Shown here in pieces: positions 3,447-29,918 of a DNA stretch of 38,393 nt (position 1 is its first letter; every line of letters begins with the position of its first letter). Under the pieces are notes generated by a model. The model made no database searches, was not told the DNA's origin, and saw nothing but the letters and a program-made list of their open reading frames with translations. The DNA is taken from contig FOEK01000026.1 of NCBI GenBank assembly GCA_900110635.1, forward strand, positions 1 through 38,393, written 5' to 3'. Origin of the DNA: Lachnospiraceae bacterium NE2001. GTDB taxonomy: Bacteria > Bacillota > Clostridia > Lachnospirales > Lachnospiraceae. Both the position numbers and the translations under genes were made by a program.

Positions 3447-3490
3447 AACAAAATGAGCCACACCATTTCTGGTGTGGCTCTTAATTTATC
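3447..3490. terminator. bidirectional terminator
   Basis: A perfect 11-bp stem GAGCCACACCA/TGGTGTGGCTC (3455-3465 with 3470-3480) has a TTTC loop. It is followed by TTAATTTAT on the plus strand and by ATTTTGTTTC on the minus strand. It separates the convergent phosphatase and GTPase genes and can serve both. Confidence 0.85.
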
Positions 3491-3510: not shown

Positions 3511-6186
3511 TTAGAAGCCATAGGCTCCGCGAAGAGATCTGTAATCATTTTCCAGCTGGGATGCTGTCATCAGCTTTGAGTTTTCTCCTCGTATGATCAG
3601 CTGGATCATACCGTCAGAGGTTGCAACTGTGATATCCAGATTTCTGGCATTCTCAACGGTAAAGCGGGCTATATACTGATCTGCAGTTTCCGCCTCCTTC
3701 GTAAAGACAACGTGTACTCCCAGGTAGTCCATCTTCTCCGTAATATGTCCTCGAACGTTATATGCATCGAAAACAACTATTACCTCTGTGCCCTTCATTG
3801 CTTTATATTCCGACATTATATCCAGGAGTTTGAATCTTGCGCCCTCCAGGTCAAGAGACTGCTGCTCCTTAGAAACATTTTTATTCTCAATAAGAACCTT
3901 CAGGTCCTTCCAGGCGTGAATTATATTGTAGCCGTCAACCAAAAGATACTTCTTTTTATCCAGTGTTTTAGCTGCTGCTTTACTGGCTGAACTGTTCCTA
4001 GCAGACCGATTTTCTGCCTGAATAGTGCTCTTACTCAGATAGACACGCTTGGTTCTGCGGTTCTCATTTCCAGCATTGGAATGTGTAGCACTGCGAAGTA
4101 TGTCATCTATCTCGTCTGTTCCAAGAGCCCTGTCCCTATTCTCGGCAGATCTATTCTTCTCATAACGAAGGTGTGCCTGTCTCAGAGACTCTGCTTCACG
4201 CATAAGCCTCTCGTCATCTGTCTCATCATCTGTATTAAAATACTCCGACTCTCTTGAATCCAGGTGCATCATCGACTCACACTCAAACCAAGGAACATAG
4301 TAACCAGCTCCGTGATCTATAAAGATGCTTCCAGATGGATTCTCCTTATCTGTATCTGGATCGTAGTTCTTATCTGCTATAACCTCCTCAGATACATCCT
4401 GCGGCATATCCGTATAACCAGCAAACTTAAGTTCCATGGTTCCCTGTCCTGAGGTATATTCTGTCAGCTTCGTCTGATAATCTGCGATACATCTGGCTGG
4501 GGCACAGCCAGTCAGGGAACCATCAGCATTTAGATTACATTTTCCTCCCATATCAGATATCTCAGTCATTACACGACCTACACCTTCTGTCGGAAGTGTG
4601 ATCACAAAATCGTACTGGGGCTCAAGCAGCAGGCACTCTGTCTTCATAAGTCCCTGCCTTATGGCACGCCTGACGGACTCTCGGAAGTCCTGACTGTCGG
4701 TATGTTTAAGATGTGCCTTTCCAGCAATCAGCGTAAATCTGATATCTGTGAGAGCCGCTCCCATAAGAATTCCCACTGGCAAATGATTCGTAAGTGTAGA
4801 AAGGATAGTCTTCTGCCAGTTGATTCCCAGCTCATCTACGCTGAGGTCGCTGGCCACCTCTACTCCGGTACCTCTTGGAAGAGGCTCCATAAGTATCTGC
4901 ACCTCGGAGTAATGACGCAACGGCTCAAAATGTCCATATCCGATTACTGGTGCAGCTATAGTCTCTTTATATACAAAGCTTCCCTTGGCAAAGTCAATGG
5001 ATACTCCGTACAGCTCCTGAACACGTTCCTTCAGAATCTCCATCTGAAAGACACCCATAACTGATATGCTGGCTGTATCGTCACCAGTAACCTCCAGCTG
5101 AAGCAGTGGATCTTCAGAACAAAGCTCCCTCAGCTTTGGCAGAAATACCCTAAGAGGCACATCTATAGGAAGAACTATATCGTATCTCAGGACAGGCTGG
5201 CATATAGGGGTATCATCGTCGAACTCCTCCCCAAGGCCCATACCAGCAAATGTATTATCCAGTCCAAGAAATGTTACTATATCCCCCGCCTCTGCCTTAT
5301 CTAAGCTTTCAAACCTTCCACCACTATAGCTTCTTATCTGGCTTATCTTTTCACCAGCAAGTCTTTCGTCATCTATCTCACTACGAACCGATATGCTGCC
5401 ACCGGTAATCTTTGCAAAGCTGAGCTTCTGGCCATTTTCATAGCCTATCTTAAAGACCTTTGCAGAGAAGGAGTCCTTATACAGAATATCAGGGAGCAGT
5501 TCAGTTAGTAGTGAAATGATACTATCTACATTTTCATTCTTAAGAGCAGAGCCAAATACTACTGGATGAAAGCTTCCTTTTGATAACAGGTTTACATAAT
5601 CTTGTTTTGAGATACTGCCCTCTTCAAGATACTTTTCTATCGTTTCTTCGGAAAGTGATGCTATCTCTTCTTCTTTTTCGACAAAATCAGCATATGGGAT
5701 AAAACCTTCTCCCAGCTTGTCTGATAGCTCTGAGATTATCTCAGCCTCAGGACGCAGGCACATATCCATCTTATTAACAAATACAATATACGGAACCTTA
5801 TAGTTCCTCAGCATACTGACAAGTCGCTTCGTGGATGGCGTTACACCATCTGGTCCGCTCACTAAAAGAAGAGCCAGATCAAGCACAGAAAGAACTCGCT
5901 CCGCCTCTCCAATAAAATCAGCGTGACCAGGTGTATCTATCAAAGTCACTCTTATATCATCATCAGATTTATTTAATACATTTGACCTGTCCAAAGTGCA
6001 GAGTGCCTGCTTGGACAGAATAGTAACGCCTCTCTTCTTTTCCAGAGCTTCTGTATCAAGAAAGGCGTCGCCATTATCTACTCTTCCTGCGGATCTGATC
6101 ATCCCCAGATTATAGAGAATACTTTCTGTAAGTGTTGTCTTGCCTGCATCAACGTGGGCAAGGATACCAAGTGTTAGTTTCTTCAT
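3511..6186 (-). CDS. TetM/EF-G-like ribosomal GTPase fused to a YacP (Rae1)-type NYN nuclease domain
   Basis: An 891-residue protein. Residues 1 to about 600 are a translation GTPase of the ribosomal-protection (TetM/TetW) type: P-loop AHVDAGKT (10-17), DTPGH (84-88), NKMD (138-141) and GSALKN (212-217), then EF-G-like domains II to V. A charged, low-complexity linker (about 600-740) joins a C-terminal NYN/PIN-like domain (745-890) with acidic positions D751 (VDGYN), D807 (FDAYN), D836 (TADQYI) and D858 (TSDGM), as expected for a metal-dependent RNase of the YacP family. Classical TetM proteins are about 640 residues, so the extra 250 residues are the fused part. The B. subtilis YacP protein Rae1 cuts mRNA in the ribosomal A site; delivery of the nuclease to the ribosome by the GTPase is my inference. 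GGAAG precedes the ATG. A drug-resistance role is not shown. Confidence 0.92.
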   Translation of the reverse strand: MKKLTLGILAHVDAGKTTLTESILYNLGMIRSAGRVDNGDAFLDTEALEKKRGVTILSKQALCTLDRSNVLNKSDDDIRVTLIDTPGHADFIGEAERVLSVLDLALLLVSGPDGVTPSTKRLVSMLRNYKVPYIVFVNKMDMCLRPEAEIISELSDKLGEGFIPYADFVEKEEEIASLSEETIEKYLEEGSISKQDYVNLLSKGSFHPVVFGSALKNENVDSIISLLTELLPDILYKDSFSAKVFKIGYENGQKLSFAKITGGSISVRSEIDDERLAGEKISQIRSYSGGRFESLDKAEAGDIVTFLGLDNTFAGMGLGEEFDDDTPICQPVLRYDIVLPIDVPLRVFLPKLRELCSEDPLLQLEVTGDDTASISVMGVFQMEILKERVQELYGVSIDFAKGSFVYKETIAAPVIGYGHFEPLRHYSEVQILMEPLPRGTGVEVASDLSVDELGINWQKTILSTLTNHLPVGILMGAALTDIRFTLIAGKAHLKHTDSQDFRESVRRAIRQGLMKTECLLLEPQYDFVITLPTEGVGRVMTEISDMGGKCNLNADGSLTGCAPARCIADYQTKLTEYTSGQGTMELKFAGYTDMPQDVSEEVIADKNYDPDTDKENPSGSIFIDHGAGYYVPWFECESMMHLDSRESEYFNTDDETDDERLMREAESLRQAHLRYEKNRSAENRDRALGTDEIDDILRSATHSNAGNENRRTKRVYLSKSTIQAENRSARNSSASKAAAKTLDKKKYLLVDGYNIIHAWKDLKVLIENKNVSKEQQSLDLEGARFKLLDIMSEYKAMKGTEVIVVFDAYNVRGHITEKMDYLGVHVVFTKEAETADQYIARFTVENARNLDITVATSDGMIQLIIRGENSKLMTASQLENDYRSLRGAYGF

Positions 6187-6208
6187 ATCTATCTTCCAAA
6201 CTATATAT

Positions 6209-6297
6209 TATGACACCATATGACATACGGATTGCTCCATTGCCAAAGCTTTTCTTGCTAGCAAGAAAGCTTATTGACTTATGACACTTATGTCATA
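6209..6297 (-). promoter_or_regulatory. operator-like TATGACA repeats upstream of the GTPase gene
   Basis: The heptamer TATGACA occurs at 6209-6215, 6219-6225 and 6280-6286. The last pairs with TGTCATA (6291-6297) in a perfect 7-bp dyad with a 4-bp spacer. A TATAAT (minus strand, about 6298-6303) directly abuts the dyad, which would place it over the transcription start of the GTPase gene. A second inverted repeat lies between them (AAGCTT-type arms around GCTAGC, 6247-6272). Binding by a repressor is inferred, not shown. Confidence 0.4.
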
Positions 6298-6300
6298 TTA

Positions 6301-6337
6301 TACAAAAAAATGCACCATGTAGAAAGTACATGGTGCA
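6301..6337 (-). terminator. terminator of the thiamine operon
   Basis: A perfect 11-bp stem TGCACCATGTA/TACATGGTGCA (6311-6321 with 6327-6337) is followed on the minus strand by a run of seven T. It lies just past the tenA stop codon. Confidence 0.88.
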
Positions 6338-6343
6338 CAGCAT

Positions 6344-7009
6344 TTATTTTTCTTTATACTCGTATAGAGCGTCCCAGAAACGATTTTCAAATGTAGAACA
6401 GGTTCTAAATATCTCGCAGAGTTTTTCTACCTCTTCTTCAGGTAAGTCGGCAGCCTGCTTATTTACCAGATTGATCCAGCTTTCATTTGCCCCAACATAC
6501 TCATCACTTGTATATGCATCAAACCAAGACTTATACTTGCTCTTTGCGATCATATCAGGATATCTTTCTGTCAGGACTGCTCCCAGGATTGCATAATTCC
6601 AGGAACACTGAAGTAGTGCAGTAAGTCCATAGAGAAGACCTCCCTCCTCCAGCTGGTTCTTCATGTATTCAACATATCGCAGAATTACAGGAGTTCTGAC
6701 GCAGGATTCTACATCTGCATCTGTTACTCCAAGCGCCTTCATGTTTGCAGAATGTACATTGTATGTCTCGTACTCGATAGCATCCAGAGTATTCTTAACA
6801 AAAGCAGCCACTTCTTCATCATTTGACAGTTCCAGCATTTTCTTCAGGATAACTATATAATCCTGAAGGTACAGATAATCCTGTATCATATAATTCTTAA
6901 ACAGACTATCATCAAGAGTTCCCTCAGCCATTTCAAGCGGAAATGGTTTCTCAGCTGACTCCATCCAATTAATCTCTGCTGCAATATATAATCTGTCTGT
7001 AATATTCAT
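6344..7009 (-). CDS. tenA: TenA family aminopyrimidine aminohydrolase (thiaminase II)
   Basis: A 221-residue cytosolic helical enzyme that hydrolyses aminopyrimidine breakdown products of thiamine to HMP, feeding ThiD. The TenA active-site positions of B. subtilis are matched closely: D44 and Y47 in QDYLYL, C135 and Y139 in QCSWNY, and a C-terminal glutamate (E208 in FENRFW). The length is typical. It is the last gene of the thiM-thiE-thiD-methyltransferase-tenA operon, 12 nt behind the methyltransferase gene, with AGGAGG upstream of its ATG and a strong terminator after it. It would be repressed by TPP through the riboswitch in front of thiM. Confidence 0.93.
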   Translation of the reverse strand: MNITDRLYIAAEINWMESAEKPFPLEMAEGTLDDSLFKNYMIQDYLYLQDYIVILKKMLELSNDEEVAAFVKNTLDAIEYETYNVHSANMKALGVTDADVESCVRTPVILRYVEYMKNQLEEGGLLYGLTALLQCSWNYAILGAVLTERYPDMIAKSKYKSWFDAYTSDEYVGANESWINLVNKQAADLPEEEVEKLCEIFRTCSTFENRFWDALYEYKEK

Positions 7010-7021
7010 AGCATCTACCTC

Positions 7022-7729
7022 CTACTGCTTTTCAGCAATGATTGCAACATATCCGCCGCTCTTATAGCCTTCGATTACCTCTTCCGGCTCCTCATTTGTG
7101 TACATAGGATTCTTTACAAGAGTCTGATAGAAGGAGAACTTCTCAACCCCAAGATTCTTTAATACTTCTATCTTTTCTTCAGTTGAATGCCATACACCTG
7201 ATGACGCAAGTGCAAGTGGGTATGGCAGTTCTGGCATAGCACCCTCAAGAAACTCGTGATCATATGTGTTAAGACTCTTTCCAAGAAGATACATAAAGCC
7301 AAATGCACTCTCCTTTGGAACGTCCAGAAGGATCAGCTTTCCGCCCTTCTTAACAGCCTTAAGACTCTTCTCATATACAGAAGTAAGATCCTCCATATAA
7401 CTTGAACTTCCGTTAAAATATATAATGTCATATGTTTCATCTGGAAGGTCTACATCCTCGATAAGACCGTACTTTATGATGTTGATACCACGCTTCTCAG
7501 CAATCTCACCCATATCCTTTGAAGGCTCGATACCTTCAATGTTGGATGAATCGATGTAGCTTTCAAAAAGACCGCTTCCGCAGCCTACAGAAAGAAGCTT
7601 CTTTCCGCTGATATCGCCAAGAACCTTTTTATAAAGTCTAAGCTCACTGGTAAAGAGATTATCATTTACCATAAACCATTCATCATATTTATTTGCATAG
7701 CCGTCAAATTTCTGCTTTTCGTTACTCAT
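7022..7729 (-). CDS. class I SAM-dependent methyltransferase in the thiamine operon
   Basis: A 235-residue protein with a Rossmann-type methyltransferase fold. The SAM-binding motif I is LLSVGCGSGLFE (near residue 45-56), followed by IEGIEPS (acidic end of strand 2) and YDIIYFNGSSSY (motif IV region). It is soluble. It lies between thiD (43 nt) and tenA (12 nt) with AGGAAAA before the ATG, so it is surely co-transcribed. The substrate is unknown. Its place suggests a role in handling thiamine precursors or damaged pyrimidines, but no known salvage step needs a methyltransferase. Confidence 0.85.
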   Translation of the reverse strand: MSNEKQKFDGYANKYDEWFMVNDNLFTSELRLYKKVLGDISGKKLLSVGCGSGLFESYIDSSNIEGIEPSKDMGEIAEKRGINIIKYGLIEDVDLPDETYDIIYFNGSSSYMEDLTSVYEKSLKAVKKGGKLILLDVPKESAFGFMYLLGKSLNTYDHEFLEGAMPELPYPLALASSGVWHSTEEKIEVLKNLGVEKFSFYQTLVKNPMYTNEEPEEVIEGYKSGGYVAIIAEKQ

Positions 7730-7772
7730 TATATTTTCCTCTCATTAAAACAATAATCTGCAGTTGCTTCTT

Positions 7773-8555
7773 TTATAAGAATTTATAATTGTGTGCAAGT
7801 GGGCCGCTGCCTTTTCCAAGATCTAGCATTGCATCCAGAGCTCCAGATATATAATCCTTTGCATTCTTAACTGAATTTTCAAGAGACTCGCCCTTTGCAA
7901 GATTTGAAGCAATAGCACTTGAAAGTGTACATCCTGTTCCGTGGGTGTTAGGATTATCAATTCTTTTCCCTTTGAACCACACTGGACCATCAGCACTGTA
8001 CAGAAGATCATTTGCATCATTTACCTGATGTCCACCCTTGCAAAGAACAGCACATCCGAACTTTTCGTAAATTGCCTTCGCTGCCTTCTCCATATCCTCT
8101 TCTGACTCTATCTTCATATCAGATAAAACCTCAGCCTCTGGAATATTTGGAGTGATCACTGTTGCCAGCGGAAGCAGGCACTCCTTAAGTGTTTCGATTG
8201 CATCGTCACTTATAAGCTTAGCTCCGCTTGTTGCTACCATTACAGGATCCACTACTATATTTGATGCATTATACTGCTTTAATTTGTCGGCTATAACGTG
8301 AATCAGTTCAGTCGAAGAAACCATTCCTGTCTTTACTGCATCAGGGAAAATGTCAGTGAATATTGCGTCTATCTGCTTCTCAAGAAACTCTGGTGTTACG
8401 TCCATTATTCCTGTCACGCCAGTAGTATTCTGAGCTGTCAGTGCTGTTATAGCACTCATTCCATAGACTCCATTTGCAGTCATGGTTTTAAGATCTGCCT
8501 GAATACCGGCGCCTCCACTGGAATCACTTCCAGCTATGGTTAATGCTGTGTTCAT
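7773..8555 (-). CDS. thiD: hydroxymethylpyrimidine / phosphomethylpyrimidine kinase ThiD
   Basis: A 260-residue ribokinase-fold enzyme that phosphorylates HMP and then HMP-P to HMP-PP. The family signatures are present: N-terminal TIAGSDSSGGAGIQADLK with the substrate-binding SGGAG, TALTAQNT, and the anion-hole/active-site THGTGCTLSSAIA near residue 210 with its cysteine. The length is typical. It follows thiE after 124 nt that contain a strong hairpin, and precedes the methyltransferase gene. GGTAGG lies upstream of the ATG. It supplies HMP-PP to ThiE. Confidence 0.97.
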   Translation of the reverse strand: MNTALTIAGSDSSGGAGIQADLKTMTANGVYGMSAITALTAQNTTGVTGIMDVTPEFLEKQIDAIFTDIFPDAVKTGMVSSTELIHVIADKLKQYNASNIVVDPVMVATSGAKLISDDAIETLKECLLPLATVITPNIPEAEVLSDMKIESEEDMEKAAKAIYEKFGCAVLCKGGHQVNDANDLLYSADGPVWFKGKRIDNPNTHGTGCTLSSAIASNLAKGESLENSVKNAKDYISGALDAMLDLGKGSGPLAHNYKFL

Positions 8556-8602
8556 ATCATTTTACCTACCTTTCCTATAAAAATCTTACAGCACTTTTGT
8601 AT

Positions 8603-8635
8603 AGCGGCAGAAGGTGGTGCCCCCAATCTGCCGCT
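8603..8635 (-). promoter_or_regulatory. intra-operon hairpin between thiE and thiD
   Basis: A perfect 9-bp stem AGCGGCAGA/TCTGCCGCT (8603-8611 with 8627-8635) has a 15-nt loop that can fold further. There is no T-run on the minus strand, so it is more likely an RNA processing or stability element than a terminator. It lies within the 124-nt thiE-thiD gap, which is long for this otherwise compact operon. Confidence 0.5.
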
Positions 8636-8679
8636 TCTTTGCATTTATTATGTGTCAGCTGCTTATCGTGTCAGGTTTA

Positions 8680-9321
8680 TTAGTTATTCACCATCTCGGC
8701 TGTGACACGCTTCAGCTCTTTTGTTGCGGCAGGAATATCAGCCTGTGCATAGATTGCACTGATAACTGCGATGCCGCATATACCTGTACCGGCAAGCTGA
8801 GGAGTATTATCCACTGTTATTCCACCGATAGCTATTACTGGAATATTAACTGCCTCGCATATAGCCTTCAGCGTCTCGTGAGATACATCGTCTGCATCAT
8901 CCTTGGAGCCAGTTGGGAAAACCGCTCCAACTCCCAGATAATCAGCCCCTCTCTTCTCGGCCAGGATAGCCTGTTCAACTGTCTGAGCTGAAACACCTAT
9001 GATCTTATCCGGACCAAGCTTCGCACGAACATCTCCTGCTTCCATATCACTCTGACCAACGTGAACTCCATCAGCATCCATAGCAATAGCTATATCCACG
9101 TTATCATTTATCACAAATGGTACCTTATACTCAGCACACAGCTCCTTTAGCTGTTTTGCCTCTTCAAGGAAGTGTTCATTATCCAGTTCCTTTTCTCTAA
9201 GCTGGATAAAGGTCGCACCTCCATCAAGACTTTCCTTAACAACCTCGTAAAGAGTTCTTCCATTTAACCAATGGCGGTCTGTAACTGCATATAACAGCAG
9301 GTCCTTTTTATCGAATCTCAT
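8680..9321 (-). CDS. thiE: thiamine-phosphate synthase ThiE
   Basis: A 213-residue TIM-barrel enzyme that couples HMP-PP with thiazole phosphate to thiamine phosphate. Motifs: TFIQLREK, VPFVINDNVDIA, DGVHVGQSDM (pyrophosphate and Mg binding), IGVSAQT, GVGAVFPTGSK and VIAIGGIT. The start is set at MRFDKKD (9321), which has a perfect AAAGGAG 6 nt upstream; a longer frame to 9369 would overlap thiM by 62 nt without a ribosome binding site. The chosen start still overlaps the thiM end by 14 nt, implying translational coupling. Its substrates come from ThiD and ThiM in the same operon. Confidence 0.96.
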   Translation of the reverse strand: MRFDKKDLLLYAVTDRHWLNGRTLYEVVKESLDGGATFIQLREKELDNEHFLEEAKQLKELCAEYKVPFVINDNVDIAIAMDADGVHVGQSDMEAGDVRAKLGPDKIIGVSAQTVEQAILAEKRGADYLGVGAVFPTGSKDDADDVSHETLKAICEAVNIPVIAIGGITVDNTPQLAGTGICGIAVISAIYAQADIPAATKELKRVTAEMVNN

Positions 9322-10129
9322 ACTTTGCTCCTTTATCAAGTGTCTCAGAATCCATGATGTAGATGGCATCGATTATACGGTTACGGTAAGTTGAATTACC
9401 GTCGCCCTCCTGCATATATGACCAGCCAATCTCTCCAGCAAGTCCCATAGTACATACAGCAGCAGCGGCAGCCTCAACAAGATTGTCAGGATTTGCCACA
9501 AGAAATGCTGTAGTAAGGCCTGACAGCTGACAGCCTGTTCCGGTTATCTTGCCCATCTCTGGACGACCATTTCTGATCACGAAGCATTTATCTCCATCAC
9601 TTACCAGGTCGATTGCTCCTGTAATTGCAACAACTGCACCAGCTTTCTTAGCAAAATCCTTTACGAACTTTACTGCACTATCCAGGGTCTCTTCTGTAAC
9701 TGCATCAGCCACATCAGCATCAACTCCCTTTGTAGTTCCGCTTCCAAGTGCAAGGGTCTTGATCTCTGATATATTTCCTCTGATACAGGTGAACTTTATC
9801 TCATCCATCAGCTTTACTGCTGTATCGGTACGAAGGGCCGATGCACCAGCTCCCACAGGATCAAGCAGCAGTACGTGTCCAAGCTCTGCAGCCTTTCTTC
9901 CTGCTCTGAACATTCCCTCTATGGAGTTCTTGTTGAGAGTACCAATATTGATATTCAGACCACCACAGATTGATGTGATGTCCTCAACATCATCCGGTTC
10001 GTCCGACATTATCGGGCTTCCTCCACAGGCCAGCAGTACATTTGCCACATCATTAACTGTTACATAGTTTGTGATGTTGTGCACAAGTGGTACATTTTTT
10101 CTTACATTTTCCAAACATTTTCCTAACAT
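9308..10129 (-). CDS. thiM: hydroxyethylthiazole kinase ThiM
   Basis: A 273-residue ribokinase-like enzyme that phosphorylates the thiazole moiety for salvage. It shows VHNITNYVTVNDVANVLLA near the N-terminus, the substrate region GGSPIMSDEPDDVEDI, LDPVGAGAS, and the phosphate-binding TGTGCQLSGLTTA with the usual cysteine. The length is typical. It is the first gene of the operon, with GGAAGAAG upstream of its ATG, and lies directly behind the TPP riboswitch and its terminator. Its presence without thiG or thiC here indicates salvage rather than synthesis from scratch. Confidence 0.97.
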   Translation of the reverse strand: MLGKCLENVRKNVPLVHNITNYVTVNDVANVLLACGGSPIMSDEPDDVEDITSICGGLNINIGTLNKNSIEGMFRAGRKAAELGHVLLLDPVGAGASALRTDTAVKLMDEIKFTCIRGNISEIKTLALGSGTTKGVDADVADAVTEETLDSAVKFVKDFAKKAGAVVAITGAIDLVSDGDKCFVIRNGRPEMGKITGTGCQLSGLTTAFLVANPDNLVEAAAAAVCTMGLAGEIGWSYMQEGDGNSTYRNRIIDAIYIMDSETLDKGAKYEIR

Positions 10130-10196
10130 AATCTTCTTCCTTTCTACTACATTGATCTATGTTGGTTTCTTAGAATCCTGCCCAGCAGTTTTTCGT

Positions 10197-10233
10197 TAAA
10201 AAAGCAGATACATCCAACCGGACATATCTGCTT
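10197..10233 (-). terminator. riboswitch-controlled terminator before thiM
   Basis: A 14-bp stem (AAGCAGATA arm at 10225-10233 with TATCTGCTT complement at 10202-10210, plus inner pairs with two G-U) and a GGTT loop are followed on the minus strand by six T. It sits between the TPP aptamer and thiM, where TPP binding should favour its formation. Confidence 0.85.
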
Positions 10234-10248
10234 AAAACACGACTATGA

Positions 10249-10330
10249 TCCCTACGTTGGCATTATCCAAATCAGGTAATGGGTCCAAACCATACAGTCT
10301 GTTCTCAGCCGAATCTCGCTCAGCTCCCCG
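10249..10330 (-). promoter_or_regulatory. TPP riboswitch (THI element) of the thi operon
   Basis: On the minus strand the conserved thi-box parts appear in order: GGGGAGC, GGCTGAGAAC, GGACCCATTACCTGAT, GGATAATGCCAACGTAGGGA. This is a full TPP aptamer. It precedes thiM and is followed by a terminator, the classic transcription-attenuation layout. Confidence 0.97.
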
Positions 10331-10349
10331 TTATTTATTTACACGCCGC

Positions 10350-10382: not shown

Positions 10383-10446
10383 AATGTGCAATAGGGGACA
10401 GACCTATGTGCAATGGGGACAGTCCCCATTGCACCATTGCACATTT
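10383..10446. repeat. palindromic repeat, copy 2
   Basis: This is the most complete copy. It starts with ATGTGCAATAGGGGACAGAC, then carries the perfect palindrome GTGCAATGGGGAC-A-GTCCCCATTGCAC (10408-10434), and ends TTGCACATTT. It follows the stop of the permease-acyltransferase gene and may also act as its 3' hairpin. The -35 box of the thi promoter lies just outside it. Confidence 0.85.
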
Positions 10447-13114
10447 ATTTTTTGGCGAGGTATTCTGTAGCAAATTGTATCTTTGTGGCGTTGAAACCTT
10501 CTTCCATTGGATAGATGAAGAAGGTGTCGTCCAATGTTGAGAGTGTAACGCACTGTCCTTTGCCTCGATAGTCGTACTCAGTGTGGATGGATATTGTTGA
10601 TTTAGGGGCAAAATGCAGTGTCTCTGTCTTATCGGTTCTGTAGTTATAGTAGGTAAGGTCGAAGCCATTCAGGCTGTGCACCAGTCTTCCTTCACCGCAG
10701 TCTACAAAGTTAAATGAATTCGGCAGCGCTTCAATCTTCACGCGGGTATTCAGCAGGTATTTGCCAGCATCGATTTCAGCATTAACGCACTGCCTCTCCC
10801 AGTCGTACCACTCTGGGATATAAAGTGTATCTTTTTCAGGACTTTCAGAGCTGACTGCCACAGCACCACCAGTTTTTTGGTGGAGTGTTCCCAGCTCGTC
10901 CATCTCGAAGGCTGCTCCGCAGGCATCACATTTTATCTCTGCACCAGAAGTGATCATCTTGAATTCCTTCTTGCAGCATATGCACTGATACAGTGGCATA
11001 TGAAGTCCTTCTGCCCTAAAGACATCAGCAATAACCATGTTATTATCTCGCTGATATCTATATTCATCATAGTCAAGATTCTTAACCAGCTTTGAATGTA
11101 TTTCTTGAACGCTAAGACTCTTTGCTTCATCAGCACTTAGGACACAGGTAACATCTGCGTGTAGCTTTACAGCCTTTCTCTCTTTTAGGTTCCATATAGG
11201 GGACAGCAGATAATTGCCCTGCATATTTACGACCACAACAGGAACCTTCAGAAGTCTCACCAGCTTTGCCACAGAAAGTGGAAGCTCCGAAGGAGTTCCA
11301 ACATTTGCATATCGTGCTTCTGGGTAAATGACCATGATGCCTTTACGCTTTATAACATTTCTTATATTTCTGATAAGGGCCTGATCGTTAATGAACTTTC
11401 TTGTTCCGAGGCAGCCCGTCTGTCTGTATATCCACTCGCCAAAGTTTTCGAACCCCTCAAGCTCGGATATGTAATTTGCCCTGTGTGGTGCAAGGCAGAG
11501 CGGTGTTACATAGAAATCTGTAAAGGAGTGATGCGTTCCAAGCACCAGATACGGTGGCTTGATTCCCTCCATGTTGTGCTTATCGATCGTCAGCTTATTC
11601 TTAGCTGTTATCACCTTGCAGATCAGGAGCATCAGGGGAAAGAGAAAAAAATTCTGCTTTGGCGGAACCTTATCCCTGTCAAATGGCTTCTTGTCCGGTA
11701 TAACGTAGGCATCCTTTCTTACATAGCGTCTGATAGGCGCCAGCTTGCAGAGCAGGAAGTACAGGATTCCTGTTGCAAGGAAAGAACAGCCGGTTGGTGT
11801 CAGAACAAAAAGCGCAGGTATATGAACTATTCCCTTTATTGGGTTGTATATTACCAAGGATAAAATGAAACCGAAGGCGAGACATACCAATCCGACTATA
11901 TTAAAACCGTGGGTATAGTCGTAGGAATGATGCCCTTCTAAACCGAAAGCGCTCTTTAAGTCCAGCTTCTGTTTTCTCACCAAGAAGAAATCTACACAGA
12001 GCAGAGCTGCTAGTGGTGCATAAACCAGGGCGCCGATAGTAAGGAAGCTTCCGAAATATTCAGTAATCTTGCCCCATACACAAAGTGCTGTTACGTAAGC
12101 ACCAAGTATCAGAACAAGCACTCTGTATGAAACCTTTGGAAATGTGGACTTTAGCATTACACCATAGATATAGGAACCAACTGCCTGTGTTCCAATATTG
12201 GCAAATGCAACTAAAAGTAGTGAAGACAGTCCGAGGATCGGAGCAGACAGGGTTGCCAGCATCATGGTCGGATCGTCTACCATTTGACCTGTAACATGAT
12301 GCATGGCGATAGCCATAACCGCACCAACTACAACGAAGAAGGAACCTGCAACGCCCTGCCCCAAAACGCCTGCATAGAAGCCGCTTCGTTCAGACTTGCA
12401 GAGCCTTGGCACCTCAGCCATACCTCCAACAAGGGTTATAACAAATGCAAAGTTCGCTTCTATAGAAAGAATATAATTCGTTGTCTCGCTCACATCTCCA
12501 GCTAGTTCAGGCTTGTAGTTCCAGATAACATCTATAGGAACAGATGTGAAACCAACGATTACAACCACAACACCAACAAGAAGCAGAAGTGGAACAAGTA
12601 TTCGTGTGGTCCAGGTGATACTGCCTATTCCTCTATAGGCGATAAATGTACCTAGCACAACACAGGATATACTAAGCACCAGATGTCCTCCCGGGAAGAG
12701 TCCGATGCCAAACAGTCCCAGCAGGTTTTCCATAGAATCTGCGAAGAGCTCGCAGCAAACTGCATACCAGGGGAAGTTTACCAGAATTATAAGAATAGTT
12801 ACGACATTTACTCCTTTAAAGCCAAAGACGCTTCTGAGCCATATCCAGATATCGATGCCGTACCTTACCGACAGAATAACTGGAAGCTGGTATACCAGAA
12901 GCATAAAAAGAGCTGCAAAAAAAGCTCCGATAAGAAGCTGTTTAAAATTGACCAGAGTAGCCAGATATGAGCCCTGGGTATAACTCCAGGTTGCTATACA
13001 GTAACCTGACAGAACCAGCAGAGCATCTATGAAACCGTACTTCCTTTCTTTGGGTAGTACAGGATATGTACCAAAGTACACCTCCTGCTCGATAGCCTTT
13101 TCAACCTTATTCAT
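10445..13114 (-). CDS. NCS1-type permease fused to PlsC-like acyltransferase and zinc ribbon
   Basis: An 889-residue single frame. Residues about 20-460 form a 12-segment transporter of the NCS1 (cytosine/purine/thiamine-type) family, with an unbroken series of hydrophobic helices. Residues about 490-700 match lysophospholipid acyltransferases: HX4D at H528-D533 (THHSFTDF) and YPEAR (597-601) in place of FPEGT. A zinc ribbon follows (C711/C714, C729/C732), then a beta-rich C-terminal tail. The start at 13114 is chosen because its ATG shares one base with the upstream stop (TAATG) and has GGGGGATGGG before it. The two halves normally exist as separate proteins. Substrates of both are unknown; acylation at the inner face of the membrane is an inference. 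It lies upstream of, not under, the TPP riboswitch. Confidence 0.88.
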   Translation of the reverse strand: MNKVEKAIEQEVYFGTYPVLPKERKYGFIDALLVLSGYCIATWSYTQGSYLATLVNFKQLLIGAFFAALFMLLVYQLPVILSVRYGIDIWIWLRSVFGFKGVNVVTILIILVNFPWYAVCCELFADSMENLLGLFGIGLFPGGHLVLSISCVVLGTFIAYRGIGSITWTTRILVPLLLLVGVVVVIVGFTSVPIDVIWNYKPELAGDVSETTNYILSIEANFAFVITLVGGMAEVPRLCKSERSGFYAGVLGQGVAGSFFVVVGAVMAIAMHHVTGQMVDDPTMMLATLSAPILGLSSLLLVAFANIGTQAVGSYIYGVMLKSTFPKVSYRVLVLILGAYVTALCVWGKITEYFGSFLTIGALVYAPLAALLCVDFFLVRKQKLDLKSAFGLEGHHSYDYTHGFNIVGLVCLAFGFILSLVIYNPIKGIVHIPALFVLTPTGCSFLATGILYFLLCKLAPIRRYVRKDAYVIPDKKPFDRDKVPPKQNFFLFPLMLLICKVITAKNKLTIDKHNMEGIKPPYLVLGTHHSFTDFYVTPLCLAPHRANYISELEGFENFGEWIYRQTGCLGTRKFINDQALIRNIRNVIKRKGIMVIYPEARYANVGTPSELPLSVAKLVRLLKVPVVVVNMQGNYLLSPIWNLKERKAVKLHADVTCVLSADEAKSLSVQEIHSKLVKNLDYDEYRYQRDNNMVIADVFRAEGLHMPLYQCICCKKEFKMITSGAEIKCDACGAAFEMDELGTLHQKTGGAVAVSSESPEKDTLYIPEWYDWERQCVNAEIDAGKYLLNTRVKIEALPNSFNFVDCGEGRLVHSLNGFDLTYYNYRTDKTETLHFAPKSTISIHTEYDYRGKGQCVTLSTLDDTFFIYPMEEGFNATKIQFATEYLAKK

Positions 13115-13299
13115 TATACCCATCCCCCTATGATCACAAGAATTAAGCAAATAGCCGCGAATATTCCAGTAAGTATATAATCCTTTTTAGTCATAGCCGG
13201 AATGCCGGTTGTGATTCCTCTGTCATCTATATCGTCTTTGATGACATTTTCCTCAAGATACTCGATTCTCTTTTCTAGCTCCTGATTTTTCTCGTCCAT
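13114..13299 (-). CDS. small coiled-coil membrane protein
   Basis: A 61-residue protein: a charged helical N-terminus (MDEKNQELEKRIEYLEENV) followed by a basic turn and one C-terminal membrane segment (about residues 42-60) ending IIGGWV. AAGGGGG lies 5 nt before the ATG. Its stop codon overlaps the start codon of the permease-acyltransferase gene (TAATG), so the two are translationally coupled and probably work together. It may be an accessory subunit or oligomerisation factor; the family is not recognised. Confidence 0.75.
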   Translation of the reverse strand: MDEKNQELEKRIEYLEENVIKDDIDDRGITTGIPAMTKKDYILTGIFAAICLILVIIGGWV

Positions 13300-29780: not shown

Positions 29781-29800
29781 ACATTATACAAATCAGGCAA

Positions 29801-29883
29801 ATCCCTACGTTGGCATTATCCAAATCAGGTTATGGGTCCAGACGATACAGTCTGTTCTCAGCCTGTTTACACAAGCTCCCCTA
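29801..29883 (-). promoter_or_regulatory. TPP riboswitch of cytX
   Basis: The minus strand shows GGGGAGC, GGCTGAGAACAGACTGTAT, GGACCCATAACCTGAT and GGATAATGCCAACGTAGGGA, a complete TPP aptamer almost identical in its core to the one before thiM. The P3 stem region differs in length and sequence. It is followed by a terminator and then cytX. Confidence 0.97.
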
Positions 29884-29918
29884 AGTGATTATCGTTTTAT
29901 TTAGTTTAAACATGCTAG

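Follow-up and report, generated by a model that had tools for sequence, protein, structure and literature searches.

In 2015, Atkinson and colleagues described Tet proteins from ten clostridial species that carry a YacP-like NYN domain; in the passages on these proteins, they suggested a resistance mechanism based on RNase activity and listed RNase ability toward rRNA as something to test (PMC4342817). Among the matches listed in our literature searches, no other paper describes the fusion or tests its function experimentally. Here, we analyze a gene of this type in Lachnospiraceae bacterium NE2001, on the minus strand of contig FOEK01000026.1, positions 1 to 38,393 (38,393 nucleotides, referred to as the window). 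The gene encodes a translational GTPase of the EF-G/TetM type fused to a nuclease domain of the YacP/Rae1 type (Table 1). The original prediction, made from the DNA letters of the window, had presented the function of this arrangement as not known to be described; its novelty is smaller, as both the fusion and the idea of RNase-based resistance have been in print since 2015, in the same passages (PMC4342817). The architecture is known from print, and analyses of its distribution, residues, operon context, subfamily, and C-terminal tail are added here.

The reading we favor, which we hold somewhat likelier than its opposite, is that the window protein is the Rae1/YacP of its lineage, moved out of the usual operon and tethered to a dedicated GTPase that would bring the nuclease to paused ribosomes. 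On the evidence from the operon, residue conservation, and the GTPase subfamily, translation quality control becomes a likelier role than antibiotic resistance.

A recurrent GTPase–nuclease fusion

The gene is a single open reading frame that starts with ATG and runs for 891 codons without an internal stop. The frame, together with Pfam domains above cut-off, bears out the original prediction of a GTPase joined in one frame to an NYN domain. The fusion is real: the same architecture is found in 121 of 150 genomes of the family (the window's own included), which excludes chance or a bad join. This recurrence also answers the concern that a frameshift might separate two genes.

NYN_YacP was detected in 135 of the 150 family genomes, with a single match in 132 of them; the window's genome has one match only. 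The GTPase (E ≤ 1e-100) was found in 130 genomes, all of which are among the 135 that carry NYN, and the 15 genomes without NYN are likewise without the GTPase. A genome counted as fused when its GTPase shared a contig with an NYN match and the frame of that match had at least 690 residues; by this count, 121 of the 130 GTPase-bearing genomes are fused. According to the search listings, the remaining nine comprise five with separate genes, two cut by contig ends, and two with frame breaks. Five genomes have NYN but no GTPase at this threshold, one of which (G068) has a weaker GTPase match.

In a sample of 299 genomes from the phylum, NYN occurred in 155 and the GTPase in 20, that is, in 18 long frames (own genome included) and two separate genes. 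In a sample of 245 genomes from the class, the GTPase, searched with an unfused query (E ≤ 1e-110), was present in 102 and NYN in 161, and all 86 genomes in which the GTPase frame reaches 735 residues have NYN. Requiring an NYN match, among the 150 rows listed, on the same contig as the GTPase and an NYN frame of at least 600 residues, the fusion is present in at least 80 of the 245 genomes, about a third. Fourteen class genomes were counted as unfused, leaving aside G494 (a broken fusion) and G569 (a contig edge). Both parts stand in one frame in 15 of 18 public relative loci (L062–L075 and L078); contig ends truncate two of the others (L076 and L077), and the last (L079, Caloramator) has a free NYN domain. 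Named carriers are Monoglobus pectinilyticus and Agathobacter rectalis.

Some relatives show broken or shortened forms: G042 (loci L128/L140) has GTPase and NYN in two frames that overlap, in L131 of G140 the GTPase is interrupted by a frame break, L133 of G135 is a fusion in which no match to the final third of the GTPase was detected, and G494 has a split fusion. Two NYN_YacP matches occur in each of four class genomes: both sit in fused frames in G571 (61% complete), and in G574, G639, and G679, which belong to one genus, the listed match is fused. Two human-gut records named “Bacteriophage sp.” (L206, MT835514; L207, MT835563) also carry the fused gene. The scanned neighbors in MT835514 are ordinary bacterial genes (mraW, an aminoacyl-tRNA synthetase, FeoB, and a RelA-like gene), so carriage by a phage was rejected; the record is probably mislabeled.

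Relationships of the nuclease and the GTPase

Among solved structures, YacP/Rae1 of Bacillus subtilis (5mq8/5mq9) was the only match of the NYN part at E ≤ 1 (E = 1.5e-15). Counted along the alignment with 5mq8, D751, D807, D836, and D858 face D7, D53, D81, and D104 of Rae1, which we take to be its catalytic acids. To compare NYN domains, 149 frames with a match were collected; two with fewer than 110 matched positions and one that ran off its locus end were dropped, and the remaining 146 gave 112 distinct sequences. D751, N754, D807, D836, and D858 are invariant in these sequences, being present in 70 of 70 fused and 42 of 42 free domains (two of the latter, L016 and L128, are probably broken fusions). 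The acids that had been predicted at catalytic positions, D751 and D836 among them, are in place, and the suspicion that these might not be conserved among fused homologs is contradicted by the presence of all four in each of the 70 fused rows.

The position facing Rae1 R118 is Arg in 41 of 42 free versus 29 of 70 fused domains. The tail that follows D858 is shorter than 50 residues in 26 of 70 fused versus none of 42 free domains; it has 33 residues in the window protein and at least 61 in every free row. A basic C-terminal pattern, defined ad hoc, is found in one of 44 long-tailed fused versus 23 of 42 free domains. Suppressors of efp selected in B. subtilis include the rae1 change R166P and others that break the rae1 frame, of which one lies late in the gene (nt 469–473); the sections of that study dealing with them count these changes as loss of function (PMC6613710). 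We infer that free Rae1 depends on its C-terminal end, a requirement that the GTPase can replace. The short tails of many fused members are consistent with ribosome docking having been taken over by the GTPase. In the linker, around residues 692–700, a pattern recurs that is roughly E-L/I-x-x-I-F/L-x-x-T/A (42 of 56 rows by one ad hoc pattern), and this is a possible candidate for a docking motif.

In 10 of the 13 loci with a free yacP gene, yacP comes after rlmB; mrnC is present in 10, cysS in nine, and a sigma factor in six. These neighbor families were named by Pfam on one representative (L126), and the 13 loci include L128, the probable broken fusion. A search for cysS was made in 10 fused genomes and nine regions were compared, G012, which has a more distant cysS, being left out. 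All nine regions contain cysS-mrnC-rlmB, followed by a sigma-factor match in eight, and in none of the nine, the window's own genome included, was a yacP match (E ≤ 1e-5) found beside these genes. In locus L197, from the window's own genome, the end of rlmB is at 2901, with the sigma-factor match starting at 2963. The kinship with Rae1 that had been proposed is supported, and in fused genomes the usual operon no longer contains the Rae1 gene. No conserved neighborhood of the fused gene itself was found among 54 loci, the most frequent neighbor family occurring in five.

In the GTPase tree, 56 fused and two unfused rows group together with a support of 99, and five other unfused rows also group at 99. 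The two unfused rows inside the fused group are one split gene and one sequence from Ligilactobacillus salivarius. As judged from this topology, a single fusion event with later splits or losses would fit. The L. salivarius member (L186), annotated as tetracycline resistance and placed inside the fused branch, is encoded on a 213-kb plasmid, where two genes separate it from rpsN. In the NYN tree, which has few columns and weak forks, nine free rows from the family are placed close to the fused rows, and another 31 free rows group at 98. Relocation of the nuclease gene into the GTPase gene would be the simplest reading.

The nearest solved structures to the GTPase part by sequence are TetO (4v6v, 210 bits) and TetM (3j9y, 209 bits), followed by EF-G (at most 192 bits). 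With its G motifs and its domains IV and V of the EF-G type, the protein belongs to the translational GTPases (EF2 family). The GTPase had been predicted to be complete, and its motifs are intact: G15, K16, T17, D84, T85, P86, G87, and H88 are each found in 56 of 56 fused rows and N138 in 55 (cut or odd fused loci, namely L075–L078, L099, L117, and L131–L134, were excluded). The window protein scores far below the curated NCBIfam cut-offs for Tet proteins (357.6 versus 775 bits for NF012153 and 242.7 versus 1100 bits for NF033148), as does locus L104 (261.9 bits versus 1100 for NF033148). Three of eight fused family genomes examined carry Tet-type genes as well, and three such genes, found in G104, G035, and G138, pass NF033148 at 1246.6–1308.5 bits. 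The GTPase tree, which has 77 rows and was made by a quick method with support from the SH-like approximate likelihood-ratio test (SH-aLRT) only, places all 63 fused and unfused members in one group (100), apart from eight Tet-like rows, of which two are long branches, and six EF-G rows.

Loop III at the tip of domain IV has the consensus G-K/R-A-H-x-K-H-T, with T496 in 56, H495 in 54, K494 in 52, and H492 in 52 of 56 fused rows. H492 occupies a position that is His in all six EF-G rows. Position 494 is Pro in five of eight Tet-like rows versus Lys in the fused ones. The relevant parts of two studies report that Pro509 of TetM overlaps the tetracycline site (PMC7456112) and that the triple mutant S508A P509A V510A of TetM remains active (PMC4750697); because of the latter, the difference in loop III is only suggestive with respect to drug displacement. 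A motif C-terminal to domain V (S-V/I-F, then G and V/I-x-W) occurs in 56 of 56 fused and seven of seven unfused rows, and in none of the eight Tet-like or six EF-G rows; S620, F622, G626, and W633 are each present in every fused row.

The window GTPase belongs to a separate subfamily and, judged by curated cut-offs, is not a Tet protein. The original description as TetM-like holds insofar as TetO and TetM are the nearest solved structures, and fails insofar as scores lie below the Tet cut-offs and the protein has its own branch. That the fusion enters drug-bound ribosomes, also part of the original prediction, is weakened by the wide distribution, the distinct subfamily, and the Tet-type genes in three of eight fused genomes. 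Tetracycline resistance as the main function appears unlikely.

Proposed mechanism and rival explanations

EF-G-type proteins place domain IV in the ribosomal A site. As to the ribosome step, the order of action, and the substrate, we infer the following course. The GTP-bound N-terminal part would bind ribosomes whose A site is free or blocked, and domain IV would reach the decoding center, where the A site would be remodeled or cleared. After GTP hydrolysis and withdrawal, the NYN domain would move into the A site on its flexible linker and cleave the mRNA at that position, as proposed for free Rae1. The cleaved message would then pass to the usual non-stop rescue and exonucleases. The two parts are placed in sequence because domain IV and the NYN domain would hardly fit the A site of the 30S subunit together.

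More tentatively, and with less than even confidence, we propose that the protein might be a ribosome quality-control enzyme of Clostridia, in which GTP would serve to open or clear a paused A site and the tethered nuclease would cut the mRNA. Docking would have moved from the C-terminal segment of the nuclease to the GTPase, the nuclease would depend on the GTPase, and no antibiotic would be needed. If true, a GTP-driven form of A-site mRNA cleavage exists in most of the Lachnospiraceae sampled (121/150) and in about a third of the class sampled (at least 80/245), and the recruitment of small A-site nucleases such as Rae1 becomes directly testable. There is also a practical side: the fusion protein WP_306784676.1 of Agathobacter rectalis is named a tetracycline resistance protein in one public record, and resistome surveys that trust such names for fusion proteins may overcount resistance.

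Several observations weigh against the tethered-Rae1 reading. Rows are related, so counts are not independent events. E840, which faces Rae1 E85, is Glu in 42 of 42 free and 53 of 70 fused domains, and is Ala in the window protein. Having lost the C-terminal segment of Rae1, the nuclease could possibly no longer work in the A site; 15 of the 26 short NYN tails come from the window protein's own branch. As an alternative to relocation, the operon yacP may have been replaced by an imported fusion gene, the forks in the NYN tree being weak. Among class genomes, separate genes co-occur no more than by chance, NYN being present in eight of 14 genomes with an unfused GTPase and in 66 of 143 without the GTPase (Fisher p = 0.58). 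The family sample had given a signal (five of five versus five of 20, p = 0.005); all 20 GTPase genomes of the phylum sample have NYN, but only two of these are unfused, and a Fisher test on those alone gave p = 0.24. A partnership of GTPase and nuclease before fusion was considered on the family signal (5/5 versus 5/20) and rejected when that signal failed in the class sample (8/14 versus 66/143). Finally, six of the 14 class genomes with an unfused GTPase have no YacP match (three of the six belong to one genus), which implies that the GTPase has a function of its own.

The last point leads to the rival that survives best, although we rate it unlikely: two functions on one chain, where the GTPase would have its own housekeeping job in aid of special ribosome states, and the nuclease would be a passenger that gains coexpression and proximity to ribosomes and acts independently, like free Rae1. 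Apart from the six YacP-less genomes among 14, it is favored by the many class genomes with YacP and without this GTPase (66/143) and by a linker that is long and poorly conserved. However, the single long frame in 121 of 130 GTPase-bearing family genomes, the absence of the GTPase from the 15 family genomes that lack NYN, and the restriction of short nuclease tails to fused forms (26/70 versus 0/42) speak against mere cohabitation.

A ribosomal protection protein acting against tetracycline or another A-site drug by means of RNase activity, as in Atkinson 2015, is improbable. TetO and TetM are the nearest solved relatives, the idea has already been proposed in print, in the passages cited above (PMC4342817), and the reported activity of the S508A P509A V510A TetM makes a differing loop III compatible with drug displacement (PMC4750697, in the part concerned). 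Yet scores lie far below the curated Tet cut-offs for both the window protein and L104 (261.9 versus 1100), the GTPase tree gives a separate branch, and K494 stands in 52 of 56 rows where five of eight Tet-like rows have the Pro whose TetM counterpart, Pro509, is described as overlapping tetracycline (PMC7456112, in the part concerned). The distribution is also wide, and Tet-type genes occur in addition in three of eight fused genomes, and three of these genes pass the cut-off. Cut-offs, tree, loop III, distribution, and co-carried Tet-type genes weaken the case for tetracycline protection as the main role; it is retained as a rival because TetM tolerates changes in loop III (PMC4750697).

There is only a slim chance that the target of the NYN domain is now a different RNA (rRNA, tRNA, or mRNA at the entry channel) and that the GTPase serves as a ribosome anchor. 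The frequent loss of the C-terminal segment and the unkept position facing R118 (41/42 free versus 29/70 fused) would agree with this, and RNase ability toward rRNA was raised by Atkinson 2015, in the passage mentioned, as something to test (PMC4342817); on the other side stand Rae1-like active-site residues in 70 of 70 fused domains and the disappearance of the free gene from the operon in nine of nine fused genomes. A sequencing or assembly error that joined two genes, for which only the general risk and the breaks in a few relatives (G042, G140, and G494) speak, is next to impossible, given that the architecture is shared by 121 of the 150 family genomes and by no fewer than 80 of the 245 from the class.

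Flanking DNA and comparison with known systems

Terminator-like hairpins flank the fusion gene (Table 1); in the region, four were observed versus 2.1 expected by shuffling. Membership of the gene in a thiamine operon was rejected because such a hairpin, a pattern match only, lies between them. Just downstream of this hairpin, the leader of the fusion gene (6186–6310, minus strand) contains a near-perfect palindrome, aagctttcttgctagcaagaaaagctt, and three tgtcata repeats, which together are a possible regulatory site. The thiamine genes (6344–10340, minus strand) encode thiamine monophosphate synthase, hydroxyethylthiazole kinase, phosphomethylpyrimidine kinase, and a TenA-like protein, and are headed by a thiamine pyrophosphate (TPP) riboswitch (10232–10340); a second TPP riboswitch lies at 29785–29891. 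A frame of 901 residues (10445–13150, minus strand) shows an unusual pairing of a cytosine/purine/thiamine permease family (residues 30–436) with an acyltransferase family (residues 523–643, just above cut-off). A defense system was considered and rejected, the PADLOC match being marginal only (E = 0.005).

Table 1. Coordinates of the fusion gene, its parts, and the flanking hairpins in the window
Feature	Residues	Position	Strand	Basis
Terminator-like hairpin between upstream tenA-like gene and fusion gene		6310..6338	−	12 pairs then T run; pattern match only
Fusion gene, EF-G/TetM-type GTPase + linker + YacP/Rae1-type NYN nuclease domain	1–891	3511..6186	−	891-codon open reading frame; Pfam
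GTP-binding domain	4–232	5491..6177	−	Pfam GTP_EFTU, 164 bits; P-loop, DTPGH, NKMD motifs
Domain II	240–315	5242..5469	−	EF-G_D2, 23.1 bits, below Pfam cut-off 27
Domain IV	406–516	4639..4971	−	Pfam EFG_IV, 46.6 bits
Tip loop III of domain IV, GKAHLKHTDSQDFR	489–502	4681..4722	−	Conservation in fused rows, T496 56/56
Domain V	520–601	4384..4629	−	Pfam EFG_C, 49.9 bits
Subfamily C-terminal motif after domain V, SIFIDHGAGYYVPWFECESMMH	620–641	4264..4329	−	Pattern in 56/56 fused rows
Linker, poorly conserved	642–747	3946..4263	−	67–199 residues, median 88, among fused rows
YacP/Rae1-type NYN domain; D751, N754, D807, D836, D858	748–882	3541..3945	−	Pfam NYN_YacP, 128.5 bits (cut-off 24.6); 5mq8, E 1.5e-15
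Terminator-like hairpin downstream of fusion gene, found on both strands		3455..3480	−	11 pairs; pattern match only

The closest described proteins are the Tet-NYN proteins of Atkinson 2015, which share the architecture (an EF-G/Tet-type GTPase with a YacP-like NYN domain) and the clostridial hosts; the passages concerned give them one short statement, which contains no operon, residue, or subfamily analysis. Tet(M) and Tet(O) have the same domain order and are the best sequence match among solved structures, whereas the window protein falls below their cut-offs, has another loop III and another C-terminal extension, sits on a separate branch, and has NYN added. EF-G also has the same domain order, and the window subfamily shares its loop III His (52/56), but the window protein is a separate paralog, EF-G being encoded elsewhere in the window's genome (G000 C28). 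Finally, Rae1/YacP of B. subtilis (5mq8) has a homologous NYN domain with the same active-site residues; it is a free protein with a C-terminal segment, whereas the window domain is without this segment, tethered to a GTPase, and encoded outside the cysS-mrnC-rlmB operon.

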